Shown here one piece after another: positions 4,813 through 21,536 of a stretch of 32,691 bases of DNA. Source of the stretch: an uncultured Lamprocystis sp. (GTDB lineage Bacteria > Pseudomonadota > Gammaproteobacteria > Chromatiales > Chromatiaceae); NCBI RefSeq assembly GCF_903933125.1, contig NZ_CAIZIZ010000421.1:1-32691 (forward strand), read 5' to 3'. How positions within the stretch are numbered: the first letter of the stretch is position 1; the number at the start of each line of letters is the position of its first letter. A program made the translations under genes and the position numbers. The notes under the pieces are model-generated. The model made no database searches. It was not told the DNA's origin and was given only the letters and a program-made list of their open reading frames with translations.

Positions 4813-4831
4813 GCCGCAGAGCGAGACGTAC

Positions 4832-4885: not shown

Positions 4886-4908
4886 ATCCCACGCGATGGC
4901 ACCAACCG

Positions 4909-5427: not shown

Positions 5428-5443
5428 TTTGTGGCGGGTGGAA

Positions 5444-5473
5444 GGGTGGAACCGCTGCGCTTGTTCCACCCTA
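5444..5473 (-). repeat. REP palindrome (right of RAYT, inverted)
   Basis: gggtggaaccgctgcgcttg followed by ttccaccctac is the reverse complement of the repeat at 4855. It follows the RAYT stop codon by 16 nt. Confidence 0.8.
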
Positions 5474-5506
5474 CAGAACTACAGAACCAAAGCGCATGGT
5501 CACACC

Positions 5507-5537
5507 GTAGGGTGGAACAAGCGTAGCGGTTCCACCC
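5507..5537 (+). repeat. REP palindrome (third copy, direct)
   Basis: gtagggtggaacaagcgtag followed by cggttccaccc differs from the 4855 copy by one base. Together with 5444-5473 it makes an inverted REP pair (BIME). Confidence 0.8.
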
Positions 5538-5554
5538 CATGCCACTAACCCGAC

Positions 5555-5860
5555 CTACGCGGCGCGGGCAACGGACGACGGCCGCAACAGGGATTCAGGA
5601 CGAAAATCCGCATCCAGATGCAGATCGGCCGGTGTGATATCCAGCGTGGCACATTGGGACAAGAGCGTTGACAGTGCTTCGTAGTAGCCCATCAGACGCC
5701 CTTCGTCATAGGCGGGAAGCCGACCCGGCGCCGGGCGCCGCGTCGAACGCCATGCGGATGTCGGGCGCGCAGGTGGATGAGGCGCTGGCGCGACTTTCCC
5801 CCGCGGCCAAGGCAATTGCCATACGAGTTGCAGCAGCATCTTGATGGGTCGCGCCAGCAA
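5555..5860 (-). CDS. Hypothetical protein, C-terminal part convincing
   Basis: Follows the helicase gene on the same strand. The last ~50 residues (from AYDEGRLMGYYEALSTLL on) have protein-like composition: two amphipathic helices, then an acidic stretch ending in FRPESLL. The first half is proline- and arginine-rich (APAPHPPARPTSAWRSTRRP) and looks like read-through of non-coding or frameshifted DNA. It may be the 3' end of a decayed gene, or a small gene starting inside. I do not recognise the family. Confidence 0.35.
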   Translation of the reverse strand: MLARPIKMLLQLVWQLPWPRGKVAPAPHPPARPTSAWRSTRRPAPGRLPAYDEGRLMGYYEALSTLLSQCATLDITPADLHLDADFRPESLLRPSSVARAA

Positions 5861-5906
5861 ATCGTTGTCAACTCAAACGCGCGGCGCCGACAAGGCTCCA
5901 ATCTTG

Positions 5907-8900
5907 TCATGCTTTCGTGCCGGGTTTCGCGTGCTCCGATCCGGCGGTCCGCATCAAGCAACCCAAGTCGAGACCTTCCAACTCCTGCGGTGCGGCAATC
6001 AAATCCGGAACCGGAAAGAGGGGACTCCCAGGCGACCACAGCTCGGTACTGTCCGGGTGCTGCTCAAAATAGTCGGGGTCGGTGGTGACACGCACCGGCC
6101 CCGCCATGCCGGGCGCCAGCCAGGACCAGTCCCGAGACCCGAGTACCTTGGAGGCGACACCCGGCGGCAGTAGCTCAGGGTGTCCCAACAGAGTGCCAAG
6201 CTCCGCCAACCCATAAGCGGCGGGCGAGCGCTGCGGCTCATCCAACTCATCCTCCGTCACCTCGTCGAGGTCGAACCCGGCCTGCTCGGCAGCCGTCAGC
6301 CCGGATTCGATGTCCGTTACCAAATTAGCCCTGGCCAGCTCGCGATCCGCCGGACGCCCCAAACTGACTTCTGTAATGGCCCGGGGCAGGCGAGCCAGGA
6401 TGGGTTGGAGCCGGCCGACGAAACTCTGGAACAGGTTGATACGATGGCGCAGGGCGTCGTAAACGTCCGCCTCCACGGTGTCCTGATAGTGCAGGTTGAT
6501 GATGCGAATCTCGGGGTGTTCTTGTCCCAGGCGGTCGATACGCCCGATCCGCTGCTCGACCCGCATGGGATTCCAGGGCATGTCGTAGTTCACCAGGGCG
6601 CCGCAAAACTGGAAGTTCAGGCCCTCGGCCGCTGCATCCGTGCAGACCATGATCTCGGCACGGCCCTCCCGAAAGCGTTGCTTGGTCGTCTCTCGCGAGA
6701 TGACCTGCCAGTCGCCCGCGGGGGTCGGAACCTCGCCGCCGCGACCGGAAAAGCAGATCACCCCGGCCCCCAGGGCCTCGGCGATGCGTCCGCGCAGAAA
6801 ATCCATGGTGTCGGTGTACTGGGTAAAGACCATGGCCTGCTGGTAGCCCTGTTCGCGCAGCTCGCGCAGGACCTCGATAAGAACGCCGGCCTTGGTGTCA
6901 TGGGGCAGGCGCTTGGCCGCGGCCAACAGTGCCCGGATGTCGCCTGTCTCTTCCAAGGCCAGTGCGCGCTGCTCCAGGTCGACGGCCTGGTCCGTATCCA
7001 TTGCCTCGTCCGCCAATTCGTCGTCCGGCATGTCCTCATCAATGGCCGGATTGGCGTCTTGACCTGGGGCCATCTGACCCCCGACCGATGCAAGACGCCG
7101 GTCCAACGTCTTGATCAGGGCATGGAAGCTGCTGGCCAGACGGCGGCGATAGATGGTCATCACGAAGCCCACGGCCGTACGCTCCTGGGCCGCGGCGTTG
7201 TTGTAGGTGCTCCCGATGTAATCCTCCACCTGCTCATAGACGTAGCGTTCCGCTGCGGTCATCTCGACGAAGCGGTCCTCCACCCGGCGCGTGGCAATCG
7301 GCGTCTTGAGCTTGCCGGCCGCGTGATAACGGCGCAGTAGCTCCCGCGTGTGGCGCGAGACCAGGGCACGCAGGGGCGTATTGAGTTTCATCAACTGGAC
7401 CGCCGCCTCGCGCTCGGCGGTTTCGAGCTGCTTCAAGGGGATCGAGGCAGTATCCCGCAGCGCCTTAAGAACCTTGCGGACCTTGAGTTTGCTCAATCCC
7501 GGCAAGCGGCGCATGGCCGCGTCCTCGGCCATCGCACCGTAATCCCGCTCCGCCGCCCGAAAGAGGCTCGCCATCTGCCGCAGTTGGTCGTGGGAGGGAT
7601 TGGGTCGGGCGGCGTGGTCGAAGAAGTCCAGGAACGCCTGGGGGTGCCACTCGGTCGGCAGGCCCAGCAAGGCGAGCAGGTCCCAGACCTCGATCGGACT
7701 CACCTGCATCGGTGTGGCCGTGAGCAGGATCAGCCCCGCGGTCCGCTCCCGCAGGGCCTGCATCAGCCGCAGGAGTTGGTTTGGACGTTGGTCCGTGCCC
7801 AGGCCGCCGCCCGCACGGCGTGCGTGGTGGGCCTCGTCCAACACCACCAAATCCCAGGGGTCGGCGCCCGCCAGCAGTTCCGCCGCCCGGTCGCGGCGGC
7901 GCATCAGGTGGCTGGAGGCGAGCACAAATGGCTCGCGATGCCACTCCTTGGGGCCGACCAGGCGTTGCGCCTCCCCCTGGAGCCCTGGGGACTGCAACCA
8001 GCACAGCCGCTGCCCGTCATAGATGGGCCAGTTCAGGTTGAACTTCTCGCGCAGTTCAATTTGCCATTGGCGCAGCACCGCCTTGGGTGCGAGCACCAGC
8101 ATGCGCTTGGCCCGGCCGGCGAGCCACGCCTGGCGCAGCAACAGCCCGGCCTGGATGGTCTTGCCCAGTCCCACCTCGTCGGCAATCAACAGGTGCGGCG
8201 GCCAGTGGCCATAGAGGCGCTGGAAGGCGCGCGCCTGATGGGGCCAGGGCGTCACCGCGCTGGTCGCCTCCCCGACCCGCTCCCCGCCGTCGGGAAAGCC
8301 GGGGGCATGACGGATATAGCCCCAAATCAGACGCCGCTGGTCCAAGTGAGGTCCGGGCGGCTCGACAGTGATGGGGGCCGGCTCGGTGGGCGGCTCAACG
8401 TCGGCATGGGGCCTCTTGAGGCGACCAGGCAAGTCGTCCTTGGGCAGAAACTTGAGCAGTTCCAGGCGCACCGCCGCCGGCACGTCCATGACGATGGCAC
8501 AGGTGGCCCGGTCAGCCCAGAGCCGCGCAAAGCTCTCCTCTTCGGCCTGCACATGCGCCGTCCCGCCGGTCCAGGTGGTATAGACGTGGAAGCTCTCCCA
8601 GTTATGCTTCCAACCGAATTCGGTCTCGTTGATGCTGCCGCAAAAGGCGAGCCGGTTGCCCGCGCCGTCTTCCACGATGCCGGCCTTCTCGTGAAAGAGC
8701 CCAAGCCCGGCGATGGGCCTGCGCCCCTCATCGCAGGGCACGGCGACCTTCACGTCCAGGTGGCCCTTGGCGACCATCCAGGCCAGCAGGGCCAGGGCAT
8801 CGATCGCCGCCGGGTCCGCGGCCCCCAGCGGCTCGGCCAGGAGTGCCGCCTCCACCGTGTCGCGCAGATCTGCGCCCTGCTGGATGGCCGCCAGGTCTTG

Positions 8901-9134
8901 GGGCTTCAAGGTGCAGCCCACCACCAGGCGCATGCGGCCACCGTTGCGGACCAGGCCCTCGATGCCGCGGGCGGCGAGCGCCAGGGCGTAGGCGGAGAAG
9001 TAGCCGGTGGAGCGGTCATAGCGTACCGCGCATTCGAGGGCCGGGACGTAGAATCCCGTGACCAGGTCGCACTGTTCGGGGCTGTACTTGGTCAGCCAGG
9101 CACTGGCCGTCAGGAGCGGTTGCGAAGGGTCCAT
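5907..9134 (-). CDS. PLD-nuclease/SNF2-type helicase, defence-associated
   Basis: 1075 aa. An N-terminal phospholipase D-like domain (about residues 20-215) carries H148-E-K150-x5-D156 and the GSINETEFGW segment. It is joined to a superfamily 2 Snf2-like motor: motif I ADEVGLGKT (318-326), motif II DEAH (433-436), motif III LLTATP, and motif VI QRIGRIDRLGQ (about 860-871). Such proteins act as ATP-driven DNA translocases in DISARM- and Hma-type phage defence. An insertion rich in acidic residues (NPAIDEDMPDDELADEAMD) interrupts the second RecA half. The start lies 14 nt after the DUF29 stop, so it is co-transcribed with the methylase. Whether the PLD half cuts DNA is unknown, since only one clear HxK motif is seen. 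Confidence 0.9.
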   Translation of the reverse strand: MDPSQPLLTASAWLTKYSPEQCDLVTGFYVPALECAVRYDRSTGYFSAYALALAARGIEGLVRNGGRMRLVVGCTLKPQDLAAIQQGADLRDTVEAALLAEPLGAADPAAIDALALLAWMVAKGHLDVKVAVPCDEGRRPIAGLGLFHEKAGIVEDGAGNRLAFCGSINETEFGWKHNWESFHVYTTWTGGTAHVQAEEESFARLWADRATCAIVMDVPAAVRLELLKFLPKDDLPGRLKRPHADVEPPTEPAPITVEPPGPHLDQRRLIWGYIRHAPGFPDGGERVGEATSAVTPWPHQARAFQRLYGHWPPHLLIADEVGLGKTIQAGLLLRQAWLAGRAKRMLVLAPKAVLRQWQIELREKFNLNWPIYDGQRLCWLQSPGLQGEAQRLVGPKEWHREPFVLASSHLMRRRDRAAELLAGADPWDLVVLDEAHHARRAGGGLGTDQRPNQLLRLMQALRERTAGLILLTATPMQVSPIEVWDLLALLGLPTEWHPQAFLDFFDHAARPNPSHDQLRQMASLFRAAERDYGAMAEDAAMRRLPGLSKLKVRKVLKALRDTASIPLKQLETAEREAAVQLMKLNTPLRALVSRHTRELLRRYHAAGKLKTPIATRRVEDRFVEMTAAERYVYEQVEDYIGSTYNNAAAQERTAVGFVMTIYRRRLASSFHALIKTLDRRLASVGGQMAPGQDANPAIDEDMPDDELADEAMDTDQAVDLEQRALALEETGDIRALLAAAKRLPHDTKAGVLIEVLRELREQGYQQAMVFTQYTDTMDFLRGRIAEALGAGVICFSGRGGEVPTPAGDWQVISRETTKQRFREGRAEIMVCTDAAAEGLNFQFCGALVNYDMPWNPMRVEQRIGRIDRLGQEHPEIRIINLHYQDTVEADVYDALRHRINLFQSFVGRLQPILARLPRAITEVSLGRPADRELARANLVTDIESGLTAAEQAGFDLDEVTEDELDEPQRSPAAYGLAELGTLLGHPELLPPGVASKVLGSRDWSWLAPGMAGPVRVTTDPDYFEQHPDSTELWSPGSPLFPVPDLIAAPQELEGLDLGCLMRTAGSEHAKPGTKA

Positions 9135-9148
9135 GTGGCGATCGTCGG

Positions 9149-9595
9149 TCAGGCGTGTGGCCCTGCCGCGGACTCCAGTTGATAGGCCGAGTCGAAGACC
9201 TCTTCCCAGGTCAACTGCTTGATATCCGCGACGCGCCCCATCTCGGCCTCGGCATTGCGTTTGGCCATGATGAAGGCTTTACCCCAGAGGTCGCGGATCA
9301 CCCGCTCGTTGAGGCTGGGCGTCTCCTCGCGGATGTCGGCAATCTCGTCGCGAGCATCCGCGATGCTCGTGACCCAGCTCAATGAGCGACGCTCGGGCTG
9401 GGTCCGCCACTTGATAATGTGGAGCATCAGGCGGACCAACTGGCTCTTCAATGCACGTCGTTCGGACTTGGACAAGGCTTCGATCAACTCCTGAATGCCC
9501 ATAGTGGCCTCGGTGACTCGGCCGGTTTGCAGCGCCTCTTGGATCGCCACCGCGGTGCGATAGGGCGAGTCGCTCGCCAGGGTTTGCCAGTTCAT
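9149..9595 (-). CDS. DUF29 family protein
   Basis: 148 aa. DUF29 proteins are small, helical and common in cyanobacteria and purple bacteria, with no established function. The typical pattern is present: an N-terminal helix, EALSKSERRALKSQLVRLML, HIIKWRTQPERRSLSW, and DIREETPSLNERVIRDLW. The ATG at 9595 overlaps the methylase stop as ATGA. The longer reading frame extending to 10096 is antisense-like overlap and is not used. Position between methylase and helicase suggests a structural or regulatory part of the same complex (inference). A decayed copy of its C-terminus lies at 22871-22960. Confidence 0.85.
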   Translation of the reverse strand: MNWQTLASDSPYRTAVAIQEALQTGRVTEATMGIQELIEALSKSERRALKSQLVRLMLHIIKWRTQPERRSLSWVTSIADARDEIADIREETPSLNERVIRDLWGKAFIMAKRNAEAEMGRVADIKQLTWEEVFDSAYQLESAAGPHA

Positions 9596-12543
9596 GATGA
9601 TGACTCCTCTACAGTCCATAACGAGAGTTGGGTCGGCTTGTCCACCCGGTCGGCATAGGCCAGCCGGCGCAGGTTCTCCAGAACCTCGAAGTCGCTGGCG
9701 GAGGGTAGCACCGCCTCGGCCGGGTCGAAGCCGGTGAAGGCGCGCGACGGCGGCAGCACTTCCAGCACCGCCTCCAGGGCGGACAGGAAGAGCGGTTCCT
9801 GGGTTACTTTGGCGCGCTCCAGCAGGTCCTGGGCGGCTTGAAGGCTGCGCGTGCGGCCAAGGTGGGCGGCGTGGTGGATGGCGTCGATCCAACCGCGGGA
9901 ACCGTCGGCCGGACCCAGGGCGCCCTTGGCGGCGCGCATGGCGCTGTCCCAGAGGATGACGTTGCTGGCCTTCTTCTCGGCGACTCGTCCGATCACCTCG
10001 CGGTCCATGTCCAGCCCTACCACGCGTGCCAGACGCAGCCCTTCGTCGTAAGGGAATTGGGGGGCCTGGAAGGCGTCCCAGGCGAGTACGAACCACTCGG
10101 TGAGCGGGTCCAACTCGGCCTGGCGCTGCATGTGGGTGAGGCTCTCCATGCGCCAGCGTTTCACCTCCCGGCGTGCCGCGTCCAGGGCATCCTCGGGGGT
10201 CGCGAGATAGGGGTCCCAGGCTTCCTCGAACAGGTCAGCCTGGCGTTGCCGGCGCTTGGCCTCGGGCTGCGGGCGCGGGGTTCCGCGGCGCACCGGCCAG
10301 TGGCGGGAGAACTCCTCCAGTGCCGGTCCGAAGCAGGAGAGATAGAGATCCACACCGCGGATGCCGGCGTCCTGGAAATCCTTGATGCGGTTGCGCACCG
10401 CCGCGCGGACTCGGGGCTCCAGGTCCTCCCAGTAGAGTGACTCCTGCGCCTCGCCGCGCTCGGCGCGGGGGCGGCAGATCAGGAAGATGGTGCTGTTGGC
10501 GGCGGACTTGTCCTTGATGTGCAGCGAGCCCTCGGCCTCGGTGTTCACCGGCCAAGATGCGGTGATGACAAAGCCGGCCTCCATCAGGCCCTTGGTGAGC
10601 GCATCCCAGGCGCCGGTGGCCTTATGGGTGAACATCAGGGTCATGATCCCATCGGGCTTCAGTACGCGTCGGCACTCGGCGAAGATGGCGGCCATGCGCT
10701 CCCGGTAGTCCTGGTTGGCCAACTCCTTGGGGGCCTTCTGATCGCGGAACTTGGCCGGGTTGGCAACCGCCTCGTGCTCCTTGTCCGTGAGTGTGCGGCG
10801 AAACAGTTCAGGGTAGACATAGCCCGCGGTGCGCTTGAGCCAGACATAGAAGAAGTCAGACAATTCCGCGTACATCACGTTGTCGTAATAGGGAGGGTCC
10901 ATCACAACCAGGTCCACGGCACCGTCCACGATGTGGTCCAAGCTGTCGCCAGACTTGCAGGTGATGGTTACCGAGGACGGTTTGAAGGACGGCGCGGCGA
11001 ACATGTCCGCGTGACGGCTGTCTTTCTTTGCGGCCTTGACGTCGATGTCGGGGCGGACCAAGTCCACCAGTTCGCCGATGCACTTGGCGGTTTGTTCAAT
11101 GGCCCAGTCATAGCCAAGGCCGACGATGAGGGGGGCCATTTCGGCATAGGACCAGTTGAATGCGAAGTTGTGGCGGTTAAATGTGTTCGCGACCACTTCG
11201 CGCGTTGGCATCCAAATGGACATGCGGGAGCTGTAGTTCAGCAACTTGTCCAGCGCTAACGCGAGGTAGGCAAAGGCAGCCTTGGTCGTGTCTGTCAGTG
11301 CGCCCGTGGTTTGGTCTGATTCCAGAAGTTCCCGAAAGACCTCAACGCCAATGCCGTGGCACAGTAACTGCCTCGGAGAAAATACGTCGCGCCAGAGATA
11401 CATCCCGTACATCCGATGTCCCCTGTCGTAGTTGGACGGGTCTCCGATCGCCTCTGTCGGAACCAGGTCCAAAGCCTCCCACTCCGGCATTTTCTCCGCC
11501 AGGCGCTCGGCGATCAGGTCGGATACGTCGTCCTCGGGCCGCGGGGCACGGTAGCCGCGGACCCACTTCTCGCGCTTCTTGCCGGTCTTGGTGGTGGTCC
11601 AGGTGCGGCGCTTGTAGACCACCGCATAGAGCTGCTCCCCCATCCGGCCCCCCTGGGCCTGGCGCTTAATCTCGTCGCCATCCACCACCCGATCGCAATC
11701 CGGGAAGGGGCAATGGGCATCGCCGCCGGTCACAGTGCCGGCGGATTGTTCCTTCGTACGGCTGACGATCTCGAATCCGCAGCGCCGCTGCCCGGCCTGG
11801 GTGTAGGGTAACAGGCGCACCCCGCTCCCATCCGAGGCCAGGCGCCAGTTGGGCGAGAGTGGAATCAGGCCGTCGCAATAGGGGCAGGTGATGGTCCGAG
11901 CCCAGATGTAGGTCGTGTCAATCTGATCTGGTGCGTATGGCTGAGGAAACAACGCAGCCTGGCGGGCCTCAACCTCGGCACGCCACACATGACTCAGCCT
12001 GAGATATTCCCGGTGGACGTTAAGCCCGAACCGGAGGGGCCAATCTACCGTTGCGCGCAAGAGGAGCGCCGCGACGGGGTTCAGGTCGTTGGCGAGGGTG
12101 TTGAGGTTTAGCCGCGTCGCTTCAAAGGGGATGCTGCCGCCGCCCGCGGTGGGGTCCAACACGGTCGGACTATCCATTCCAAGGCGACGAGCCTCATACC
12201 TGAACCATTCAAGGTCCTCTTGTCCAGGCAAGTAGCCGAAGGCCCGTTTGTATCCGTAGGGGTCCTCGACACGCTCACCCTTTCTTACAGCGCGGTCCAT
12301 CGCTGCCCGAGCAGCCATCGGGTCCCCATGAATCCCCAGCACACGCATGAACCGCTGCCGATCCGCGTCCGCCGGCAGCAGTGCGGCCAGGATGGCGGCG
12401 CGGGAGGCGACCAGGGGTCGGCGTGCCCACCAGACGTGCAGCCGGTTGGGCGCCGGGAAGGGCGTCATGGGCGTGCGCTCGCGCAGGCCCTCCAGTCCGA
12501 TCTCGGCGATGGGCAACCAGGTCTCGATCAGGCGTGTGGTCAT
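9592..12543 (-). CDS. DUF1156-containing adenine-specific DNA methyltransferase
   Basis: 983 aa. Starts with the DUF1156 region (LIETWLPIAEIGLEGLRERT, then NRLHVWWARRPL), typical of COG1743-type methylases linked to phage defence. The SAM-binding motif is VLDPTAGGGS (128-137) and the catalytic motif is DPPYYDNV (about 548-555). Between them a zinc-ribbon-like region has CPYC (about 220) and CPFPDC (about 277). The C-terminal ~250 residues are probably target-recognition or partner-binding sequence. The ATG at 12543 lies 7 nt after the VapC stop. The frame is open further upstream, but that would overlap vapC. It likely methylates host DNA to mark self for the linked helicase and ATPase. Confidence 0.92.
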   Translation of the reverse strand: MTTRLIETWLPIAEIGLEGLRERTPMTPFPAPNRLHVWWARRPLVASRAAILAALLPADADRQRFMRVLGIHGDPMAARAAMDRAVRKGERVEDPYGYKRAFGYLPGQEDLEWFRYEARRLGMDSPTVLDPTAGGGSIPFEATRLNLNTLANDLNPVAALLLRATVDWPLRFGLNVHREYLRLSHVWRAEVEARQAALFPQPYAPDQIDTTYIWARTITCPYCDGLIPLSPNWRLASDGSGVRLLPYTQAGQRRCGFEIVSRTKEQSAGTVTGGDAHCPFPDCDRVVDGDEIKRQAQGGRMGEQLYAVVYKRRTWTTTKTGKKREKWVRGYRAPRPEDDVSDLIAERLAEKMPEWEALDLVPTEAIGDPSNYDRGHRMYGMYLWRDVFSPRQLLCHGIGVEVFRELLESDQTTGALTDTTKAAFAYLALALDKLLNYSSRMSIWMPTREVVANTFNRHNFAFNWSYAEMAPLIVGLGYDWAIEQTAKCIGELVDLVRPDIDVKAAKKDSRHADMFAAPSFKPSSVTITCKSGDSLDHIVDGAVDLVVMDPPYYDNVMYAELSDFFYVWLKRTAGYVYPELFRRTLTDKEHEAVANPAKFRDQKAPKELANQDYRERMAAIFAECRRVLKPDGIMTLMFTHKATGAWDALTKGLMEAGFVITASWPVNTEAEGSLHIKDKSAANSTIFLICRPRAERGEAQESLYWEDLEPRVRAAVRNRIKDFQDAGIRGVDLYLSCFGPALEEFSRHWPVRRGTPRPQPEAKRRQRQADLFEEAWDPYLATPEDALDAARREVKRWRMESLTHMQRQAELDPLTEWFVLAWDAFQAPQFPYDEGLRLARVVGLDMDREVIGRVAEKKASNVILWDSAMRAAKGALGPADGSRGWIDAIHHAAHLGRTRSLQAAQDLLERAKVTQEPLFLSALEAVLEVLPPSRAFTGFDPAEAVLPSASDFEVLENLRRLAYADRVDKPTQLSLWTVEESSS

Positions 12544-12550
12544 GGGGCGT

Positions 12551-12961
12551 TCAGCGCTCGGCGGCCTTCCAGTCTTCGATGGACAAGTGCGCAACGCGCC
12601 TGAATTCCGCCGTATTGTTGGTGACCAGGGTCAATCCGTTCGCGATGGCAATGGCCGCGATCATTGTGTCATAGGGTCCGATGAGACCACCGGCGCGGGA
12701 CAACTCGGCGCGTATGCGTCCGAGGATGTCAGCGCACCGGTCGTCGAATTCCAGGGATGGAAAGCAGCGGAAAAAGGCGCGCTGGGCGCGCAGGGTGCGT
12801 TCCGGGTCCTGACTCTTGTAGGCGCCGTACAGCAACTCCGATTTGACGATGGAACAGAGATAGACATCGCCGGGCTTGGTCGCCCGCAATCGTTCACGGA
12901 TGGCGGGTGTCCCGCGCTTGAGGTAATCGATGCAGGCGTTGGTATCGAGCAACCAGCTCAT
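12551..12961 (-). CDS. vapC: VapC-type PIN-domain ribonuclease toxin
   Basis: 136 aa, standard length. PIN-domain acidic residues are visible: D6 (LLDTN), E42 (SELLYG) and D98 (PYDTMIAA), followed by LVTNNTAEF, the usual fourth motif. VapC toxins cleave RNA, often initiator tRNA. The start overlaps the antitoxin stop as ATGA, the classic vapBC coupling. It is embedded directly ahead of the methylase, with 7 nt between, so loss of the defence operon would also release the toxin (inference). Confidence 0.93.
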   Translation of the reverse strand: MSWLLDTNACIDYLKRGTPAIRERLRATKPGDVYLCSIVKSELLYGAYKSQDPERTLRAQRAFFRCFPSLEFDDRCADILGRIRAELSRAGGLIGPYDTMIAAIAIANGLTLVTNNTAEFRRVAHLSIEDWKAAER

Positions 12962-13200
12962 GGGAATGGCTCGCGCGTCGGATGCTCGCCTTGGGTCTCG
13001 CGCTCGGACAGGTCCGGGATGCTCCCGGCTGTCTGTTCAAAGAAGCCCGTCGGCCAGTCGTCGCGGATACTTTCGGTCAGCGCGGGGACCGGCTCCTCGT
13101 CCAATGCCAGAAACACCACCTCGACGCGACGGCGGCGCATGGTCGGCGGTACGGATAAACGGTCAGGTACGGCATCGTAGACTAGGCGGATCGCATTCAT
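12958..13200 (-). CDS. VapB-like antitoxin
   Basis: 80 aa directly upstream of vapC and overlapping it by 4 nt. The N-terminus NAIRLVYDAVPDRLSVPP is a DNA-binding-like strand-helix region. The C-terminus GFFEQTAGSIPDLSERETQG is the toxin-wrapping tail typical of VapB partners. The ribosome-binding site AGGAGG lies at the ideal distance before ATG 13200. It presumably represses its own promoter together with VapC. Confidence 0.85.
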   Translation of the reverse strand: MNAIRLVYDAVPDRLSVPPTMRRRRVEVVFLALDEEPVPALTESIRDDWPTGFFEQTAGSIPDLSERETQGEHPTREPFP

Positions 13201-13231
13201 TTGTTCCTCCTCTGTGGCAAAGACTCAGTGA

Positions 13232-13264
13232 AGCAGGTTGGGATGCATAATGCTTATCCACCCG
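13232..13264 (-). repeat. REP-like repeat
   Basis: On the minus strand it reads GTCGGGTGGATAAGCATTAT then GCATCCCAACC, a relaxed member of the GGTGGATAAGC repeat class. It overlaps the end of the UPF0175 gene, whose SSGG-stop tail falls in it. Confidence 0.4.
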
Positions 13265-13505
13265 ACGACTCGCGCGCGAGGCTGTCGTCATCCACGACAA
13301 AGACGTCCACACCTTCGTGGGCCAGGGTATGAAGAAAATCGCGTCTGTTCATCCCCGCCAGCTCGGCTGCACGCTCCTGCGACATCAGACCGCGTCCATA
13401 CCAATGGATCGCCGCGGCCAGCTTTAACTCGCGTCCGAGCTCGGTCGGCGAACGCCGCAGGGCGGACAGCGCGGAATCGGGGATGGCCAGGGTCAGTGTC
13501 GGCAT
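13254..13505 (-). CDS. UPF0175 family protein (orphan antitoxin)
   Basis: 83 aa. LTLAIPDSALSALRRSP at the start, then LKLAAAIHWYGRGLMSQERA and AELAGMNRRDFLHTLAHEG, is the UPF0175 pattern, a VapB-like antitoxin normally followed by a DUF3368 PIN toxin. Here no DUF3368 gene follows; the next gene is the unrelated VapB. A DUF3368 C-terminal fragment exists at 21537-21892 in the same island. The gene is upstream of and co-oriented with the methylase operon. Confidence 0.85.
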   Translation of the reverse strand: MPTLTLAIPDSALSALRRSPTELGRELKLAAAIHWYGRGLMSQERAAELAGMNRRDFLHTLAHEGVDVFVVDDDSLARESSGG

Positions 13506-13653
13506 TACACTCTTTCCTCAGCGGGGCGGGCGATATATCCCGTCCCTCATATTTCGGGGCGCCCACCGAAGCCTGTGGTCGCACGCGACATTGAAAAAGT
13601 TCCGCACGGGACGCGGGCCTCGAACGGCTCCACGGCCGGCGGCCTGCGACTTT

Positions 13654-13797
13654 GGCAGGATAGCCGCGGCGCCGGCTGCAGACACGGCAATCTTCGCCTA
13701 CACTGATTGTTGTAACGGTTTGCGGCGACCTCGGGACCTGGGCCACCAGTCGCAAGCCCGGACGGTAGAGAGGCCCCGCTGCCGCTCCCGACCCCAG
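13654..13797 (+). ncRNA. Candidate structured small RNA, copy 1
   Basis: First copy of a duplicated ~144-bp element. A -10-like TACACT (13699-13704) is followed 7 nt later by GTAACGG, the likely transcript start. Two hairpins follow: GGTTTGCG/CGCAAGCC (13717-13758), then CGGTAG/CTGCCG (13763-13784) with loop AGAGGCCCCG. Stem positions differ between the copies but remain paired, and the loop core GAGGCCCCG is conserved. No T-rich terminator is seen. It could instead be a mobile palindromic repeat. Confidence 0.35.
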
Positions 13798-13841
13798 CAG
13801 CCCCATCATGCACCCCGCCGCGCTTGCCCTCAATCAAACCC

Positions 13842-13984
13842 GGCAGGACAGCCGCGGGGCGGATTGCCGATGCTGGCGTGTTGGCCTAGACTGGCCGCGT
13901 AACGGTCGGTTGCGAGGTCGGGATCTGGCGCACCAGCAACCGACTTGGATCGGGGCGAGGCCCCGCCCCTGATCCCGCCTCCCG
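13842..13984 (+). ncRNA. Candidate structured small RNA, copy 2
   Basis: Second copy, offset by about 187 nt. It has a better promoter: TTGCCG (13864-13869), 17-nt spacer, TAGACT (13887-13892), then GTAACGG at 13899. Hairpin 1 is GTCGGTTGC/GCAACCGAC (13905-13944). Hairpin 2 is GGATC-GGGGC/GCCCC-T-GATCC (13947-13975) with loop GAGGCCCC. It lies 40 nt upstream of the Panacea start codon, so it may equally be a structured leader of that gene. Confidence 0.38.
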
Positions 13985-14022
13985 TCCCACATTTCCCCAA
14001 GCGTATTTTGCCGCAAATCCCG

Positions 14023-14682
14023 ATGCTCGTTACCCACGAACGCGAAAAGCTGATCAACGCGATCCTGTACTTTGCCCACAACACCAGGTACCTGGGAAAG
14101 ATCAAGCTGTTCAAGCTCCTATTTTTGCTCGACTTCGAGCACTTCCGGCAAACCGGGCGCAGCGTGACCGGGTTGGAATACCGGGCCTGGAAATTCGGCC
14201 CGGTCCCCGTGCAGGTGATGCAGGAGTGGGACGACCCGGAGCCAGACTTGGCTGCGGCGATCTCCATCCAGCCCGAAAAGGTGATCGACCACGTTCGCGA
14301 GACTGTCGTGCCCCGAGTCCCGTTCGACGATAGCCACTTTACCAGGCGCGATCTGCGCATTATGGACGAGTTGGTGGCGCAGTACCGCGACACTTACTCG
14401 CCGACCATGATCGATGTGACCCATGCCGAAAATGGCGCATGGGCCAAGACTTGGCAGGACGGCAAGGGCATGAACGAGCCGATCCCCTATCCTCTGGGTT
14501 TGGGCGATGACAGCCCGTCACGGGACGCCATCCTGGAGATCGCCAGCGAGTACGAGGCGATCCGCAAGCACCACGTTCGTCCGATGTTGCGGTTACCCAA
14601 GCCCCGAAGGGGCGTGACATACCAGCCCAGGGCAACGCCCTGGGTATGCAGCAAAACAGCGCCTAGCCCTGAAAGGGCGTGA
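14023..14682 (+). CDS. Panacea (SocA-like, DUF4065) domain protein
   Basis: 219 aa from ATG 14023. LVTHEREKLINAILYFAHNT, LGKIKLFKLLFLLDFEHFR, GLEYRAWKFGPVPVQVM and SPTMIDVTHAENGAW are the core of the Panacea/SocA domain, a widespread antitoxin module that can neutralise many unrelated toxins. It is the only gene of the central island on the plus strand, placed between the two halves of the defence locus. No partner toxin is recognisable next to it. The last ~28 residues are encoded by the palindromic repeats at 14600-14682 and are unlikely to be ancestral. A frame open from 13945 would overlap the candidate small RNA and lacks family likeness. Confidence 0.85.
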   Translation: MLVTHEREKLINAILYFAHNTRYLGKIKLFKLLFLLDFEHFRQTGRSVTGLEYRAWKFGPVPVQVMQEWDDPEPDLAAAISIQPEKVIDHVRETVVPRVPFDDSHFTRRDLRIMDELVAQYRDTYSPTMIDVTHAENGAWAKTWQDGKGMNEPIPYPLGLGDDSPSRDAILEIASEYEAIRKHHVRPMLRLPKPRRGVTYQPRATPWVCSKTAPSPERA

Positions 14683-14790
14683 CATAAGGCGCCCCGCCCC
14701 TATGTCACGCCCTTTCAGGGCTGGACTTGCGGATACCGTCAACCCAGGGCGTTGCCCTGGGCTGGTATGTATGACCCCGTTGGGGTCGTG
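14600..14790. repeat. Nested inverted repeats around a 14-nt centre
   Basis: Outer arms 14617-14644 and 14743-14770 are 28-bp exact inverted copies, each containing the hairpin CCCAGGGCAACGCCCTGGG. Inner arms 14665-14686 and 14701-14722 are 22-bp exact inverted copies (AGCCCTGAAAGGGCGTGACA-TA). Outermost are CCCCGAAGGGG (14602) and GACCCCGTTGGGGTC (14773). The block lies between two convergent genes and may serve as a bidirectional terminator or be a REP cluster. Confidence 0.8.
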
Positions 14791-14852
14791 CGGCAAGTTA
14801 AGATGGGATAGGGTACCAGCACCGAGATTCCGCAGACCTGCTGAGGCGGCCC

Positions 14853-15335
14853 TCAAGCCTTGGGATCGATCAAGAGGAAGCGCAGTGCCATGAGCACGCG
14901 CCGGGGGTATTTGCGGTGCATGGCCATGCCGAGCCAGTAGGCGGCCTCCTCGCGGCCCATCGCTTCGATGCCTTCGGCGCAGGCGCGCATGTATTCGCGG
15001 TTGCGCATGGGGGCGAGGATGCGGAACAGGAGCCCCAGGTTGAGTGCGAAGTCCTCATCCAAGGGGAAGGTCTGGCGTTCGCCGACCAGGGTGCCGCCGA
15101 GCTTGATCCTGGCCTTGGCCAGGCGCCGCAGCACGCGATGTTCCACCAGGGCGAGGTTGCGCCCACTTAAGCCCGCGATGCGCACCGGGCTCTTGATGTG
15201 GGGGGTGGCCGGGGCCGGTACCTGCCAGACCTCCATCTCCAGGTTATCCGGCCCGTGGGTGCGGACCCACAGCTCATACCTGGGCATAGCGGCGGCCGGC
15301 CGCTCATCGGGCAAACGAGAGGGCAAGGCACTCAT
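14853..15335 (-). CDS. DUF7680-like protein, partner of the DUF499 ATPase
   Basis: 160 aa, basic and helical. It starts with an ATGA overlap on the DUF499 stop codon, so the two are translated together. Recognisable stretches are RYELWVRTHGPDNLEMEVWQ, LVEHRVLRRLAKARI and LDEDFALNLGLLFRILAPMR, with AAYWLGMAMHRKYPRRVLMA near the end, as in the small proteins found beside DUF499 ATPases. The function is unknown; a role as an adaptor for the ATPase is an inference. Its last codons (LLIDPKA) reappear in the scar ORF at 20340. Confidence 0.7.
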   Translation of the reverse strand: MSALPSRLPDERPAAAMPRYELWVRTHGPDNLEMEVWQVPAPATPHIKSPVRIAGLSGRNLALVEHRVLRRLAKARIKLGGTLVGERQTFPLDEDFALNLGLLFRILAPMRNREYMRACAEGIEAMGREEAAYWLGMAMHRKYPRRVLMALRFLLIDPKA

Positions 15336-18300
15336 GCACTGCCCTCGGCGGTGATGGACACATAGGCCGCCCCGGTGCCGAAGCGGGTCAGACGCTCGGC
15401 GAGCTTCTCGGCGGTGTCGCCCGCGAGGGCGAGTCCGGCGTCATCAAAGCGGATGTCGAAGCGGGCTTCGACCACCTTTTCCTTGGCCGCGCGCAGTTGG
15501 GGGTCCAGGAAGTCCTTCACCGGTTGCGCATCGGTGGGCGGGCCGTTGAATTCGATCTCCAGGGTGCCGCCGTCCGTGGTCACATAGCTGCCGCTCAAGG
15601 CGACCTGTTTCGTGGCGCCCTGGACGGCCGCGACCAGACCCAGGAGGCGGAAGGCGTCGGTGGCGTCGAAGAGCCGCAACGCGATGGTGCGGATATGGGT
15701 GAACTTGCGTGCCCGCGCCCGCTCCCAGAGTTTGGTGAGGGCCTCCTTGAGGACGCCTTCCTCGGTCAGTGTCCCATCCGGCGGCGGCGGAGGTGGCGGC
15801 GGCGGAGGTGGCGGGTCCGGGTCCGGATCTGGTGGCGGCGGGGGTGGCGGTGGCGGAGGTGGCTCGGCCACCTTGGGCCAGATGCCGTTGGTCTTGGCGT
15901 AGGCGGAGGTATGGACGAAGGACTGCTCGTCGATATGGATGCTGGCCCAAGGATCGCCCATGCCACAGGTCAGTTCGCCGCTTTGGTAGACGTACTCGCC
16001 CAGCTCGATGCCGCGGCGGATACCTTTCACGAAGCAGTCGTCGCCGACCAGGATGGGCAGCGCCGGGTCCCGCCGGAACTCGGCGCGCAGGGCGGCGGTG
16101 GTGAGGGTGCCTTTCTTGAGTGGGGTACGGTCGCGGATATAGGTTGGCGAATCCGGCTCGTCCTCGGGCAGGCGCAGCTTGTTGTTGGCGCGCAGCACCT
16201 CGATCACCTGCTTTTGGCCCTGCCCGGGCTTCTCGGAGGCACCCTGAACGTCAATGGCGGTGTGGGCGAGGTCAAGGTTGGCCCCGTCGATGCGGTGCTT
16301 GGAGGCATAGAACACGTGTCGGTAGCACTGCTGGATGGCCAGGGCCAGTTCCTGCTCGGAGCGTTGGTACCATTCCCTGATGCGGTCTTGCTGGTGGTCC
16401 GGGAATTCGTTGAGGCGTTCCGGGCGGCGCAGCTCGTTCAGTGCCAGGCGCCGGACCATCTTGTGCTTCATCTCCTCCTTGCGGGCCTGATCGGCCAGCA
16501 GGAAGACCAGGTTGTTGCGGTTTTTCCGCAGGCCCCCCGCCACGTCCTTGTACTCGTAGATACGGCCCACCAGTTCCGGGATCGCCACGTTGTCGCCCGC
16601 CACTTCCACCGCGTCGTAACCCAACAGGACCAGCGCCGGCTTGCCGTCGCCCGTATCGTCCGAGACCTCGTAGGGGCCGCCGGGGAAGGGGTAGAGGTTG
16701 AAGACGGTCCCGCCAAAGATGGACTTGATCCGGTCGTTGAGCTGGGCGCGGGCCTCCCCGGGGTCCGCCTGGTGCTCCTGTCGGCGCAGGATCTGGGTCA
16801 GATTAGCCTCGGCGGAAAAGCGCAGGGGCACGTTCGGACGGTCGTCCAGATAGGCCGAGCCCTGCACAAATCGCCGCCGGGCGTCGTCGATAAAACTGAG
16901 ATCCGTGCCGGGCGAGAGGATGGAGTAGCGCAGTTCCTCGGGGGTCGCGCCCTTGAGATTTTCGTTGAAGGCCAGGGTGTGGAACAGGATCGCCCGACCC
17001 AGGTAGGAGCCGTAGGGGGCGAGCCCTTGGTAATGTTCGGCATCGAGCTGTTGGGCCAGGGCGCTCTGATCCCCGTCCACGGCGGCCACATCCGATTTGA
17101 TGGCCGGTACGAACTGGCGCTGCCCCAGACGGGTGACGATCTCCTGGCGGATGGGTTCGAAACCCAAATCCAGATGGTGCAGGTGGATGGCGTAGGCGTC
17201 CGCGGGGCGCTGCTCCCACACCCTGGCCACGCTCCTGGCGAGCAATCGGAGCATGCCGCGCACCCGTTGGAAATTGCCCAGGGTGGACATCTTCTCGCGC
17301 AGGGTGTCGATCAACTCCGGGTGCAGAGGGTAACCTGCCGCGAAGGCTTCGAGCCGGGAATCACCAATGCCGGCGGGCGGCAGTTGGTCCCGATGCTGCT
17401 CCCAGAGCCGGCGATAGGACGCGATGACGACCGCGGCCCCGGCGTCGTCGATGCGGGTGAACAGCCGGCGGCGGAGAATCTTGACCGTCTCGTCCTCCTC
17501 AGTTGGATCGAGTAGCGCGGCCTTGCGGGCCGAGACGCTCTCCGCCTCCTCCATCTTGTCGGCGATGAACTGGTTCTCGTCGGTGTAGGCGTCGGTGGCC
17601 TTGCCGCCCTTGCCGATCGCGAGCGTATAGACCACGACGGCGTTGGGCGCGCTTTCCACGGCCTTGAAGAGGGCTGTGAGGAAGGCTGTGAGCTGGCCGC
17701 CCGCAGCCTCGCGCTCCCGCACCTTGAGCTTGCGCAGGTAGACCGACAATTCGTCGATCAGGATGAGCGTCGGCTCGCCGCCGAACAGCTCCTGGATGGT
17801 CGCGGCGCCGGGCGCCCCGCCCTCCTCGTCGCTGCGGCGCACCCGCTCGTAGCCTTCCCGGCCGGCCAGGGCATAGGCGATCTCGCCCCAAGGGGTAAAA
17901 GCGCGCAGGTCGGATGCCAGTGGACGCCCGTTCAAGGGGTCGGCGTTCTCGCCATCGAAGGCGGCGATCCGGACCCGAGCCCTGGGCAGCAACGCGGGGT
18001 CGAGAAATTCGTCGGCGTTCGGCACGCCGGCCATCCCGTTGATGGCGTGGGTGAGCGCGATCAGTGCATGGGTCTTGCCGCCGCCGTAGTTGGTGTCCAA
18101 CCGGAAGATCGACGCCACCTGGTGGGGGTTGCCCGTCAGGCGCAGACAGACGTTGCGCAGCAGGTCTTGCAGCCCGCGGGTGGGGTGCGTGTTGGCGAAG
18201 AATCGGACCGGGTCCAGGTACTCTTTGGGCGCGTCGCCACGCAGCACCTGGGCGAGGTCCGCGGCGAAATCCGACTCCGAGATGGTCCCTTGGAGCACGT

Positions 18301-18343
18301 CCCGGCGCGGTTCGCACAGATCGAAAATGGTCGGCAAGGTCAT
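15332..18343 (-). CDS. DUF499 domain AAA+-like ATPase, defence-associated
   Basis: 1003 aa. The P-loop is TNYGGGKTHA (84-93, Lys90) and Walker B is LILIDELS (193-200), set in the long DUF499 region. Residues about 825-857 are a low-complexity proline-aspartate tract, followed by a C-terminal helical/beta domain of ~150 residues. DUF499 ATPases occur with DUF1156 methylases and PLD-helicases in phage-defence islands. I chose ATG 18343 (MTLPTIFDLCEPRRDV) because it has an AGGAA ribosome-binding site and matches the duplicated leader. A longer frame to 18484 is only read-through of that leader. The poly-Pro linker probably separates motor and partner-binding parts. Confidence 0.92.
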   Translation of the reverse strand: MTLPTIFDLCEPRRDVLQGTISESDFAADLAQVLRGDAPKEYLDPVRFFANTHPTRGLQDLLRNVCLRLTGNPHQVASIFRLDTNYGGGKTHALIALTHAINGMAGVPNADEFLDPALLPRARVRIAAFDGENADPLNGRPLASDLRAFTPWGEIAYALAGREGYERVRRSDEEGGAPGAATIQELFGGEPTLILIDELSVYLRKLKVREREAAGGQLTAFLTALFKAVESAPNAVVVYTLAIGKGGKATDAYTDENQFIADKMEEAESVSARKAALLDPTEEDETVKILRRRLFTRIDDAGAAVVIASYRRLWEQHRDQLPPAGIGDSRLEAFAAGYPLHPELIDTLREKMSTLGNFQRVRGMLRLLARSVARVWEQRPADAYAIHLHHLDLGFEPIRQEIVTRLGQRQFVPAIKSDVAAVDGDQSALAQQLDAEHYQGLAPYGSYLGRAILFHTLAFNENLKGATPEELRYSILSPGTDLSFIDDARRRFVQGSAYLDDRPNVPLRFSAEANLTQILRRQEHQADPGEARAQLNDRIKSIFGGTVFNLYPFPGGPYEVSDDTGDGKPALVLLGYDAVEVAGDNVAIPELVGRIYEYKDVAGGLRKNRNNLVFLLADQARKEEMKHKMVRRLALNELRRPERLNEFPDHQQDRIREWYQRSEQELALAIQQCYRHVFYASKHRIDGANLDLAHTAIDVQGASEKPGQGQKQVIEVLRANNKLRLPEDEPDSPTYIRDRTPLKKGTLTTAALRAEFRRDPALPILVGDDCFVKGIRRGIELGEYVYQSGELTCGMGDPWASIHIDEQSFVHTSAYAKTNGIWPKVAEPPPPPPPPPPPDPDPDPPPPPPPPPPPPDGTLTEEGVLKEALTKLWERARARKFTHIRTIALRLFDATDAFRLLGLVAAVQGATKQVALSGSYVTTDGGTLEIEFNGPPTDAQPVKDFLDPQLRAAKEKVVEARFDIRFDDAGLALAGDTAEKLAERLTRFGTGAAYVSITAEGSA

Positions 18344-18415
18344 TGTCCGTAAATTCCTGCAATCGGCTCGCGAACTCGGCGGAAGTCTATGGCTATGATA
18401 CCTCTTAACTTCAGG
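18327..18415 (-). promoter_or_regulatory. Leader/RBS block shared with the AlbA gene, copy A
   Basis: About 89 nt covering the DUF499 start codon and upstream DNA (GGTATCAT..GAG-TTCGCGAGC..GCAGGA..GGACAATGACC). It matches 20383-20473 with scattered substitutions and small gaps. It includes the ribosome-binding site and the first six codons. A promoter is likely here but its boxes are not clear. Confidence 0.6.
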
Positions 18416-18544
18416 CAGCAGTGATCGCGCCTGCATTTGCCCGCTTCGCCAAGGGCGCCTATGGGCACCAGTGCCAGCTCTCAATCAGGCGCGTTGCCCT
18501 GGCGTCTGCAAACCGGGCTTGGCCGCACATATTAACGGTCACTC

Positions 18545-18600
18545 AAATGCTCGCGCGCAATTCCGCGCGCATTCTTTCCAAGAAAATGCGCGGACAATGC
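18545..18600 (-). terminator. Hairpin cluster after the AlbA gene, candidate terminator
   Basis: On the minus strand, just after the AlbA stop, GCGCG-CATTGTC-CGCGC is followed by ATTTTCTT. Next comes a second hairpin, AATGCGCGCGGAATTGCGCG (arms GCGCGC around GGAATT). This could end the AlbA transcript before the DUF499 leader begins. The T-tract is interrupted, so the call is weak. Confidence 0.35.
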
Positions 18601-18607
18601 GCGCCGC

Positions 18608-20332
18608 TCATTTCTGCCCGAGATCGAGACGGTAACAGGCCGAGCGCCCTGCGCCGTCGAGCAGGATCTTCGGGGTCTCCGCCCGCAGCTCCAGCATCAG
18701 GCGCACCACCTGGTTTCTGTCGTAGTGGGTGATCTGCCGGATCTCCTGATTGCTGAGTCCAGGCCCGCCGCGGCGCGCGCGATCCTTCAGGACACTGAGA
18801 ATACGGGTCTTGGCCGCCTCCCAGGCGATGCGCCGGTCGCGCTCGGGATGGCCGGGGCCGGCCAGTTGACGGTGCAGGTCGGGACGTAGCGCCCAGTAGG
18901 TGCCGCGCCCGGTTCCGCCGCGCTCCAGATAGCCCAGGCCGGTCTCCATGTCGTTGAGCAGCTCGCGGGCCTCGGGCTCGGTGCGCTGGCACAGGCGCGC
19001 CGCGGTGGCCGTGTCCAACTCCGGATGGCCGAGCAGATGATGGAGCACCAGCAAGTGCTCCACGCTCAGGACGCGCCCGGCCTTGCCCTCGTCCGCGACG
19101 AAGAGCCGGAAGGGGGCGGAGATGGGCTGTTTACGGAACCGGACCAGCACGGATTCGCCTTGCTCGGCGAGGGTGGGCGGGGCCTTGCCCTCCATCAGCA
19201 TTGCCTGAAACATGCGACGCACCCCCAGGTTCATGCGATTGACCAGGCGCAGACGCACCAGGGCGTTGACCAGCAAGGGGTTCCGCGGGACCGGGCGATG
19301 GCGCAGGATGTTCTCCGGCGAGACACCGCCGATGAATCCGCCGGCATTGGCGATCTCGATAAGGTCCGGGTACTGGCTCACCAGCAGCGGGCCGCCGACG
19401 CGGAAATCCTGGTGGCACAGGGCGTTCATCAGGGCCTCGCGGAGTGCGATCTCCGGATAGGCGCGGTATTCGTGGTGGAAGAGCCCAAGTTCCAGGGTGC
19501 TGATGGGGTTGTCGGCCATGATGCGGTCGAGGATGCGGTTCAGGGCCACGGGCAGGGCATCGTTGCCGTCCACGCGGTCGCTGTAGCCCAAGTCGCTCGT
19601 CATGCGCGCATGGGTCCAGACATAGCGCGGCAGGTGGCGGCGCAGGGCGTCGGGGTGTCCGGCCAGGAAGAGACCGGCGAAGGACAGCCGGCCATCCCGG
19701 AGCAGGTCCAGCGCGGCGAGGAGGTCGTGGTCGGAGAGATGCAGCAGGTCCTCCGGGGCGCTCTCCCGGCGCGCCGCATCGCGCAAGTGCTCCATGGCGG
19801 CGGCCGAGAGCAGGTCCGCCGGGCGGCCTTCGACGTGCCCGGCGGTAAAATCGGTCTCGCCGGTCTCGACCAGGACGCGGCGGCGTAGGCTGCCCGTCAT
19901 GGGTTGGCAGTCTTTGCCGATGCGCACCTTGGCTCGCCCCTGGCTGTCGGTATAGGGCGGCAGGCCGCCGTAGACCTGCATCAACAGCAGGCGCCCGGTG
20001 CCTTCCGGCACCATCAATTCCTCGAAGACCGGCGTGAGCCGCGGGTCCGTGCGGTCATAGACGGCCTTCAGCAGCAGGTTGATGTCGATCTCCGCGGGTA
20101 CGCCCAGGAGGGCGGCCGCGCGGCCTACCACCCGGTCGCGTACCCCGAAGACCACGGTGCCACCGCCACCGTTGGCCATGCAGACGGCCATTTCGACCAC
20201 CTGGTCCACGGCCTTCTCGCGGCTGCGCTCGGGCCACTCTTTGAAGTCGAGGTCCTGATCCTCCAGGGCATCCGCGGTTGCTGCGTCCAGCTCAGGCAGC
20301 AGGGCCTCGATGTCGCGCAGGGTCCGGGGCAT
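18608..20332 (-). CDS. AlbA_2/Schlafen-like ATP-binding protein
   Basis: 574 aa. The N-terminal AlbA_2 domain (about 22-140) has LDFKEW, ANGGGGTVVFGVRD (53-66) and the later IGKDCQPMTG. A central RecG-like/HATPase_c_4 region follows, with REALMNALCHQDF (about 297-309) and the glycine-rich GGFIGGVSPEN. The C-terminal ~130 residues hold winged-helix-like DNA-binding segments (LSNQEIRQITHYDRNQVVRL). Such proteins act as regulators or Schlafen-type nucleases in defence islands. The start ATG 20332 is preceded by AAGGAG inside the scar ORF. It lies between Fic and DUF499 on the same strand. Whether it is nuclease or regulator cannot be told here. Confidence 0.88.
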   Translation of the reverse strand: MPRTLRDIEALLPELDAATADALEDQDLDFKEWPERSREKAVDQVVEMAVCMANGGGGTVVFGVRDRVVGRAAALLGVPAEIDINLLLKAVYDRTDPRLTPVFEELMVPEGTGRLLLMQVYGGLPPYTDSQGRAKVRIGKDCQPMTGSLRRRVLVETGETDFTAGHVEGRPADLLSAAAMEHLRDAARRESAPEDLLHLSDHDLLAALDLLRDGRLSFAGLFLAGHPDALRRHLPRYVWTHARMTSDLGYSDRVDGNDALPVALNRILDRIMADNPISTLELGLFHHEYRAYPEIALREALMNALCHQDFRVGGPLLVSQYPDLIEIANAGGFIGGVSPENILRHRPVPRNPLLVNALVRLRLVNRMNLGVRRMFQAMLMEGKAPPTLAEQGESVLVRFRKQPISAPFRLFVADEGKAGRVLSVEHLLVLHHLLGHPELDTATAARLCQRTEPEARELLNDMETGLGYLERGGTGRGTYWALRPDLHRQLAGPGHPERDRRIAWEAAKTRILSVLKDRARRGGPGLSNQEIRQITHYDRNQVVRLMLELRAETPKILLDGAGRSACYRLDLGQK

Positions 20333-20339
20333 GCGACCT

Positions 20340-20399
20340 CTACTCCTTGGGATCGATCAGGAGGGCGCTGACGGTCCGGGAGATGGTCGGCGAGGTCAT
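20340..20399 (-). pseudogene. 19-codon scar ORF joining DUF499 start to DUF7680 end
   Basis: Reads MTSPTISRTVSALLIDPKE then stop. The first six residues mirror the DUF499 start (MTLPTI) and the last mirror the DUF7680 end (LLIDPKA), including the flanking DNA TGATCGATCCCAAGG. It sits at the same place in the duplicated leader and ends 7 nt before the AlbA ATG, supplying the AAGGAG ribosome-binding site. It looks like a deletion product of a former DUF499-DUF7680 pair. It could still be translated as a leader peptide. Confidence 0.55.
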
Positions 20400-20473
20400 T
20401 GTCAGAAAAACTCCTGCGATCTGCTCGCAAACTGGGCGTGTAGTCGGTCAAGATGATACCCCGTCAAGTCAGG
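20383..20473 (-). promoter_or_regulatory. Leader/RBS block, copy B (upstream of AlbA)
   Basis: 91 nt matching 18327-18415: GGGGTATCAT, AGTTTGCGAGCAGATCGCAG, GACAATGACCTCGCCGACCA. It starts 27 nt after the Fic stop codon. The duplication would put the AlbA gene and DUF499 under similar translational or transcriptional control. Confidence 0.6.
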
Positions 20474-20500
20474 CTCCGGCGATCACACCGGCTATCACTA

Positions 20501-21526: not shown

Positions 21527-21536
21527 GGGCTTCGAC

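Follow-up and report, generated by a model that had tools for sequence, protein, structure and literature searches.

A defence locus of an uncultured Lamprocystis sp. contains, beside a DUF499 ATPase, a DUF1156 DNA methylase and an SNF2 helicase with an N-terminal HKD motif, a small gene of the DUF7680 family. By its linkage and gene order this gene is probably the regular fourth gene of one branch of such systems, that with HKD-type helicases, and the counterpart of DUF3780. The stretch analysed (hereafter the window) is the 32,691-nucleotide (nt) contig NZ_CAIZIZ010000421.1, the entire contig C421 of a 7.1-Mb genome. The three-gene set is known as Hma and is reported in 26 phyla (PMC8565338), and Rakesh and Krishnan (PMC12839542) treat the same genes as BREX-related (BR) systems centred on DUF499, which they divide into three types. 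The core genes of the window are as follows.

5907–9134, minus strand: HKD(PLD)-SNF2 helicase, core (Pfam SNF2 and Helicase_C; PADLOC HmaA and PLD_Helicase; HKD motif)
9592–12543, minus strand: DUF1156 DNA methylase with a DPPY motif, core (Pfam; PADLOC HmaB; start inferred, frame open from 12594)
14853–15335, minus strand: DUF7680, proposed fourth core gene (Pfam 1.9e-46; linkage; model)
15332–18343, minus strand: DUF499 AAA+ ATPase, core (Pfam 1.1e-30; PADLOC HmaC; GGGKT motif; start inferred, frame open from 18484)

The genes that a sequence-only reading of this DNA had named between 5907 and 20332 lie where it placed them, with the translational couplings that it proposed. The models HmaA (E-value 6.7e-57), HmaB (2.2e-70) and HmaC (1.2e-89) all matched in this one locus, in line with the Hma-like assignment of that reading, and the core can be predicted with high confidence to be an Hma/BR system, a phage defence of the restriction-modification-like kind. 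The Pfam PLDc_2 match of the helicase is weak (6.8e-4, below the family cut-off); its N-terminal HKD motif aligns with those of helicases from DUF3780 loci.

The start of the DUF7680 gene overlaps the DUF499 stop in an ATGA (15335–15332), the coupling that had been proposed. We collected DUF7680 loci from the best 80 of 108 relatives in a genome scan (79 loci) and from 8 of 17 plasmid records, giving 87 loci, 83 of which had at least 600 nt upstream of the DUF7680 domain and were evaluable for linkage. In 77 of these 83 loci a DUF499 gene on the same strand ended no more than 700 nt upstream of DUF7680, and in 73 the distance was at most 120 nt; as DUF7680 was the seed of the scan, these counts show its linkage and not the share of BR systems that carry it. 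Downstream, a methylase followed in 47 of the 52 loci with at least 9 kb on that side and was missed by the score used in L034, L036, L049, L074 and L091. According to tree labels and titles, the loci come from Pseudomonadota, Cyanobacteriota, Acidobacteriota, Actinomycetota, Bacillota, Chloroflexota, Thermodesulfobacteriota and other phyla. The claim that DUF7680 belongs to the system thus withstood the co-occurrence check. Among the six loci lacking the upstream neighbour, DUF499 lies 8.6 and 2.8 kb off in L018 and L031, L068 is rearranged by deletions and L073 is a short contig; the other two, L074 and L075, are taken up below.

Among 398 sampled genomes of the phylum, DUF499 occurred in 26 and DUF7680 in four, all four within the 26 (in one of them, G291, the DUF499 match is weak and comes from a broken gene). 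Eight of 55 nearer relatives carried DUF7680, six of these being among the eight genomes of the same genus. The 34 DUF499 places in the phylum sample and the window's own genome (the window and L131–L163) included five with DUF7680 (the window, L131, L139, L144 and L161) and three with DUF3780 (L132, L133 and L149). The own genome holds six DUF499 genes, two with DUF7680 (the window and C310), two with DUF3780 (C10 and C520) and two with neither (C243 and C139). DUF3780 had no match in the window, and the two DUF3780 genes of this genome are on other contigs.

DUF7680 and DUF3780 occupy the same position in the gene order DUF499-X-methylase-helicase, where X is one or the other. A DUF499 gene was seen in 21 of 32 DUF3780 loci from IMG/VR, all 21 ordered DUF499-DUF3780-methylase, and the helicase lay behind the methylase in 19 of them, the other two ending before the helicase position. 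Loci with neither small gene were mostly ordered helicase-methylase-DUF499 (L134, L136, L140–L143, L152–L154 and L162), and a deep DUF499 group (L135, L156–L159) with neither gene has DUF499 ahead of the methylase. For helicases of at least 900 residues, the HKD motif was present in all 41 from DUF7680 loci and in both from DUF3780 loci, and in none of eight from other BR loci. When eight helicases were scanned with Pfam, PLDc_2 was found in those of L013, L016, L096 and L149 and not in those of L076, L084, L136 and L134.

The AlphaFold2 model of the window's DUF7680 (pLDDT 88.9, pTM 0.82) consists of four strands (E) and five helices (H) in the order E E E H E H H H H. This predicted arrangement fits the published verbal description of DUF3780 as a four-stranded sheet flanked by five helices (PMC12839542). 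A viral library gave no fold relatives of DUF7680 at E 0.001 or better. The profile alignment of the two families was colinear and placed the conserved DUF7680 motif REEAAYW, extended to REEAAYWL, opposite PEERWWL, with scores of 29.9, 22.5, 25.3 and 29.2. The score of 29.2, obtained on the same columns, compares with 21.5 as the highest value among 100 column shuffles and with 18.6 on reversal, this shuffled control being a single series on one version of the DUF3780 alignment. A first DUF499 tree comprised 74 of 103 sequences, with the window's own clade thinned, and two of its rows were labelled as having neither gene only because the contig of L064 is split and L018 has inserted genes; the later tree, of 80 rows, has these two relabelled, lacks the long row L151 and includes seven additional viral DUF3780 rows. 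In this later tree, 48 DUF7680 rows, including the window, fell on one side of a branch, and ten DUF3780 rows fell on one side of another with a support of 100.

Several observations weigh against this parallel and against DUF7680 as a regular component. The branch uniting the DUF7680 rows has a support of only 61, and the DUF7680 and DUF3780 groups were not recovered as sisters. The alignment score of 22.5 hardly exceeds the shuffle maximum, and the hhalign probabilities are low, from 3.4% to 24% in local comparisons (19%, 3.4%, 5.6% and 24%) and 38% in a forced global one. In addition, no DUF499 was found in the vicinity of the full-length bacterial DUF7680 genes of L074 and L075, and in IMG/VR DUF7680 stands without a recognised DUF499 in L205 (9803–10219) and L206 (9776–10204). 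Because the hhalign probabilities are low, we regard distant homology of the two families as likely rather than firm. The L074 gene (9848–10495) lies amid transporter, TonB-receptor and histidine-kinase genes, and that of L075 at 9662–10495. DUF3780 is also found without a recognised DUF499 in nine IMG/VR loci (L189, L192 and L194–L200), L197 having less than 1 kb upstream; these viral stand-alone copies of either family may be anti-defence decoys or orphan parts. A bolder proposal, which we consider doubtful, would place DUF7680 and DUF3780 in a single superfamily, whose members would be the obligatory fourth subunit of BR/Hma systems with HKD helicases and would license them by the self mark. 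Such systems would then be a class of four subunits, distinct from Type-1 BR with its three, and the stand-alone viral copies (DUF7680 in L205 and L206, DUF3780 in nine or more of the 32 IMG/VR loci) would be decoys that switch the systems off.

In the explanation that we favour as a whole, at a probability of about 0.6, the locus is a system of four core genes with DUF7680 as licensing partner. As suggested by the protein families, the methylase would mark host DNA, probably at N6-adenine, the DUF499 ATPase would sense the invader and assemble a complex, and the HKD-SNF2 helicase would travel along unmarked DNA and cut it. DUF7680, translationally coupled to the ATPase, would be its dedicated partner and would have the role proposed for DUF3780 in Type-2 BR, that of connecting the reading of the self mark with the licensing of both ATPase and nuclease. 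Some of the cargo genes described below are perhaps backup or guard modules.

The tight overlap of the DUF499 stop with the DUF7680 start would suit a stoichiometric inhibitor as well as it suits a subunit, and DUF7680 could be a brake on the nuclease or the ATPase, its place next to DUF499 serving to control the dosage, instead of a reader or licensing part. Neither the REEAAYW motif nor the broad linkage discriminates between these roles, but the DUF3780 parallel favours a subunit, and we consider a brake unlikely. The locus might also be a defence relic, its genes whole-looking but inactive and heading for loss, as would agree with the broken core copies in the same genus (L066/L235 and L068/L243), with the recombinant origin of the AlbA block described below and with the lack of any integrase match among the window open reading frames (ORFs) scanned with Pfam. 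However, the four core genes (DUF499, DUF7680, methylase and helicase) are long open frames with catalytic motifs, which makes a relic quite improbable. The published parts lists, of three genes for Hma or of three plus DUF3780 or PglZ for BR (PMC8565338, PMC12839542), would be compatible with DUF7680 being a mere passenger, like other cargo, of an ordinary Hma system of three genes. Other cargo differs between loci, whereas DUF7680 is constant, and we give this last explanation very little credence. If, as we favour, DUF7680 belongs to the regular gene set of this branch, clones with just the other three genes may fail trivially; and should DUF7680 and DUF3780 form a single family, this small subunit would be a candidate coupling point of self-recognition and attack.

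Further genes of the locus are set among these four.

9149–9595 (most likely extent), minus strand: DUF29 gene, cargo between methylase and helicase (Pfam 1e-17)
12551–12961, minus strand: VapC-like PIN toxin, cargo (Pfam PIN 2.7e-19)
12958–13200, minus strand: small gene overlapping the PIN gene (by position; no Pfam match; homologue at the same place in L068)
13254–13505, minus strand: UPF0175 protein, antitoxin-like, cargo (Pfam 3.9e-22)
13945–14682, plus strand, opposite to the core: SocA/Panacea-domain protein, cargo (Pfam SocA_Panacea 2.7e-16)

The embedding of defence genes in Hma systems is known, as 'Hma-embedded candidates' and as Septu within Hma, and the VapBC, UPF0175, Panacea, AlbA/Schlafen and DUF29 genes of the window are evidently exchangeable cargo in keeping with this habit. 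Across the loci, a spacer of more than 250 nt separates DUF7680 from the methylase in 43 of 75 and the methylase from the helicase in 22 of 55. We scanned 118 of 171 cargo ORFs of at least 75 residues, picked by eye, and Pfam found AAA_15 and AAA_21 (13 each), GmrSD_N and SLFN_AlbA_2 (6 each) and PIN (5). One PADLOC PtuA (Septu) model matched 10 of the 118 proteins, ATPases for which AriA, GajA and further models gave matches too. In L068/L243 (5229–7363) the methylase is mostly deleted, and a 620-residue frame, GmrSD-like by eye, then stands ahead of the helicase. Between the Panacea and DUF7680 genes of the window, nested long inverted repeats with arms of 44 and 25 nt occupy 14600–14787, and similar DNA was found close to DUF7680 and the methylase in L238 and L242 of the same genus; these repeats are perhaps a recombination site for cargo.

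The DUF29 start overlaps the methylase stop as ATGA (9595–9592), as the sequence-only reading had it. Its further suggestion that DUF29 is a component of the system was refuted by co-occurrence. DUF29 was present in 3 of 121 loci scanned, namely the window, L066 (a broken same-genus copy with the same DUF29-helicase junction) and L021 (upstream, on the opposite strand), and a profile search gave 27 DUF29 matches in the own genome. We therefore dropped DUF29 as a core part; it is a local addition. The VapC stop lies 7 nt from the methylase ATG (12543), exactly as had been noted, and the small gene that overlaps the PIN gene is likely its antitoxin. PIN toxins are present in at least nine loci (the window, L012, L015–L019, L025 and L068), by Pfam, record annotation or similarity to these; four further cargo proteins (L020, L054, L067 and L139) are PIN-like by eye only and were left uncounted. 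The toxins of the nine loci form at least three groups without mutual BLAST similarity at 1e-3, and in six loci (the window, L012, L015, L017, L019 and L025) the PIN gene overlaps the next core gene or lies within 7 nt of it. This combination of dissimilar groups and abutting positions argues for repeated capture. Addiction of VapBC to the core system is possible, given that several loci have a PIN pair directly next to a core gene.

The AlbA gene upstream of DUF499 has a history of its own.

18474–20359, minus strand: displaced AlbA block, comprising a DUF7680 end, the AlbA gene and the start of the AlbA-methylase spacer (84% over 1,894 nt with L022 12367–10476)
18608–20332, minus strand: SLFN_AlbA_2 and HATPase_c_4 protein, assigned as cargo of a lost second operon (Pfam)
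20340–20492, minus strand: scar, in which the DUF499 leader and first codons are joined to the last DUF7680 codons (sequence comparison)

From 20359 onward the DNA matches Thiocapsa marina (L022) through the DUF7680 end, AlbA and the pre-methylase spacer. On the other side, 20492–20383 repeats 18434–18327 (73.6% over 110 nt, E 2e-10; a separate repeat search gave 27 nt at 89%) and is also 86% identical over 56 nt to the DUF499 start of L068. At the junction, initial DUF499 residues are followed in frame by final DUF7680 residues within one short reading frame. The duplicated leader that AlbA had been said to share with the ATPase is thus real as a repeat, but we dropped its interpretation as shared regulation in favour of a recombination scar, the leader being a DUF499 start fused to a DUF7680 end. 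AlbA directly follows DUF7680 in nine other loci (L021–L024, L059–L061, L063 and L065) and is recurrent cargo; L021, L022 and L065 show the order DUF7680-AlbA-methylase, while L023 and L024, near copies of each other, stop before any methylase. In Thiohalocapsa ML1, two contigs begin at the same DUF7680 position, and the slot holds AlbA in one (L065) and Panacea in the other (L064). Sequence comparison indicates that the scar was left by a second operon with the order DUF499-DUF7680-AlbA-methylase. Most likely the window formerly had two tandem operons, the first of which retained AlbA alone, and the scar illustrates the passage of cargo genes between tandem defence operons.

The defence locus is part of a larger island of about 18 kb (4143–22289), bounded by repeats of a tRNA-Arg end.

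4114–4190, plus strand: tRNA-Arg (ACG), island integration site (ARAGORN)
4143–4236, plus strand: att-like direct repeat, left copy, comprising the tRNA-Arg 3' part and flank (94 nt)
20501–21526, minus strand: Fic-domain protein at the far end of the island (Pfam Fic 5.2e-20)
22196–22289, plus strand: att-like direct repeat, right copy, matching the left

The two repeats are 96.8% identical over 94 nt (101 nt at 94% in a separate repeat search). The tRNA-Arg and left flank are also present in same-genus genomes (L231, L234), and we found no empty site. In the congener G658 (C111; L231, L232), about 20 kb separate the tRNA-Arg from a right flank of the window type; this stretch encodes two DUF4007 proteins, a PAPS-reductase-domain protein, three large Pfam-less proteins and one AlbA protein and has fragments of the window's Fic region. 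From these contents the tRNA-Arg site is likely a hotspot for defence-type islands. A Y1 (IS200-like/REP-type) transposase gene (4909–5427) is flanked by inverted repeats of about 31–35 nt (4855–5537). At the right end, an open frame (21537–22244) with a C-terminal DUF3368 domain extends out of the right repeat and looks like a truncated PIN-like toxin gene, and outside that repeat a fragment (22794–22907) is 84% like the DUF29-helicase junction (9074–9188) and is likely a remnant of an older copy.

Compared with known systems, the locus shares with BREX and DISARM a helicase and a methylase related in sequence. The DISARM-like label of the sequence-only reading was dropped: DISARM has the DrmA helicase and DrmB (DUF1998), none of the window ORFs that were scanned with Pfam matched DUF1998, and the likeness to DrmA/DrmD is confined to the helicase. 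BREX and Type-3 BR differ in having PglZ, which also had no match among these ORFs. Type-1 BR is alike in its ATPase, methylase and SNF2 helicase, but the Type-1-like loci seen here have the order helicase-methylase-ATPase and no HKD motif in the helicase; the Type-1 helicase is described with an N-terminal TUDOR domain and a C-terminal PD-(D/E)XK nuclease (PMC12839542), and for the window helicase, with its HKD motif at the N-terminus, Pfam shows neither (domains that Pfam often misses). Hma (PADLOC; PMC8565338) is alike in the HmaA, HmaB and HmaC matches and in its embedded defence genes, and differs in being defined as three genes, DUF7680 matching no PADLOC model. The composition that the sequence-only reading could not name is thus partly known, since the three-gene core and the embedding of defence genes have been described (PMC8565338, PMC12839542, PMC12988326). 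DUF7680 is the new element; we found no description of it in the literature, in a search outside of which lay the supplements that may list it. Closest in layout is Type-2 BR (PMC12839542), with a DUF499 ATPase, a DUF1156 methylase, an SNF2 helicase with an N-terminal HKD motif and a gene for a small alpha+beta protein between ATPase and methylase. The DUF499 of the window lies outside the DUF3780-associated clade and among the DUF7680 rows, and where Type-2 BR has a standalone DUF3780 in the core locus in 98% of taxa (PMC12839542), the window has DUF7680 in the same place.

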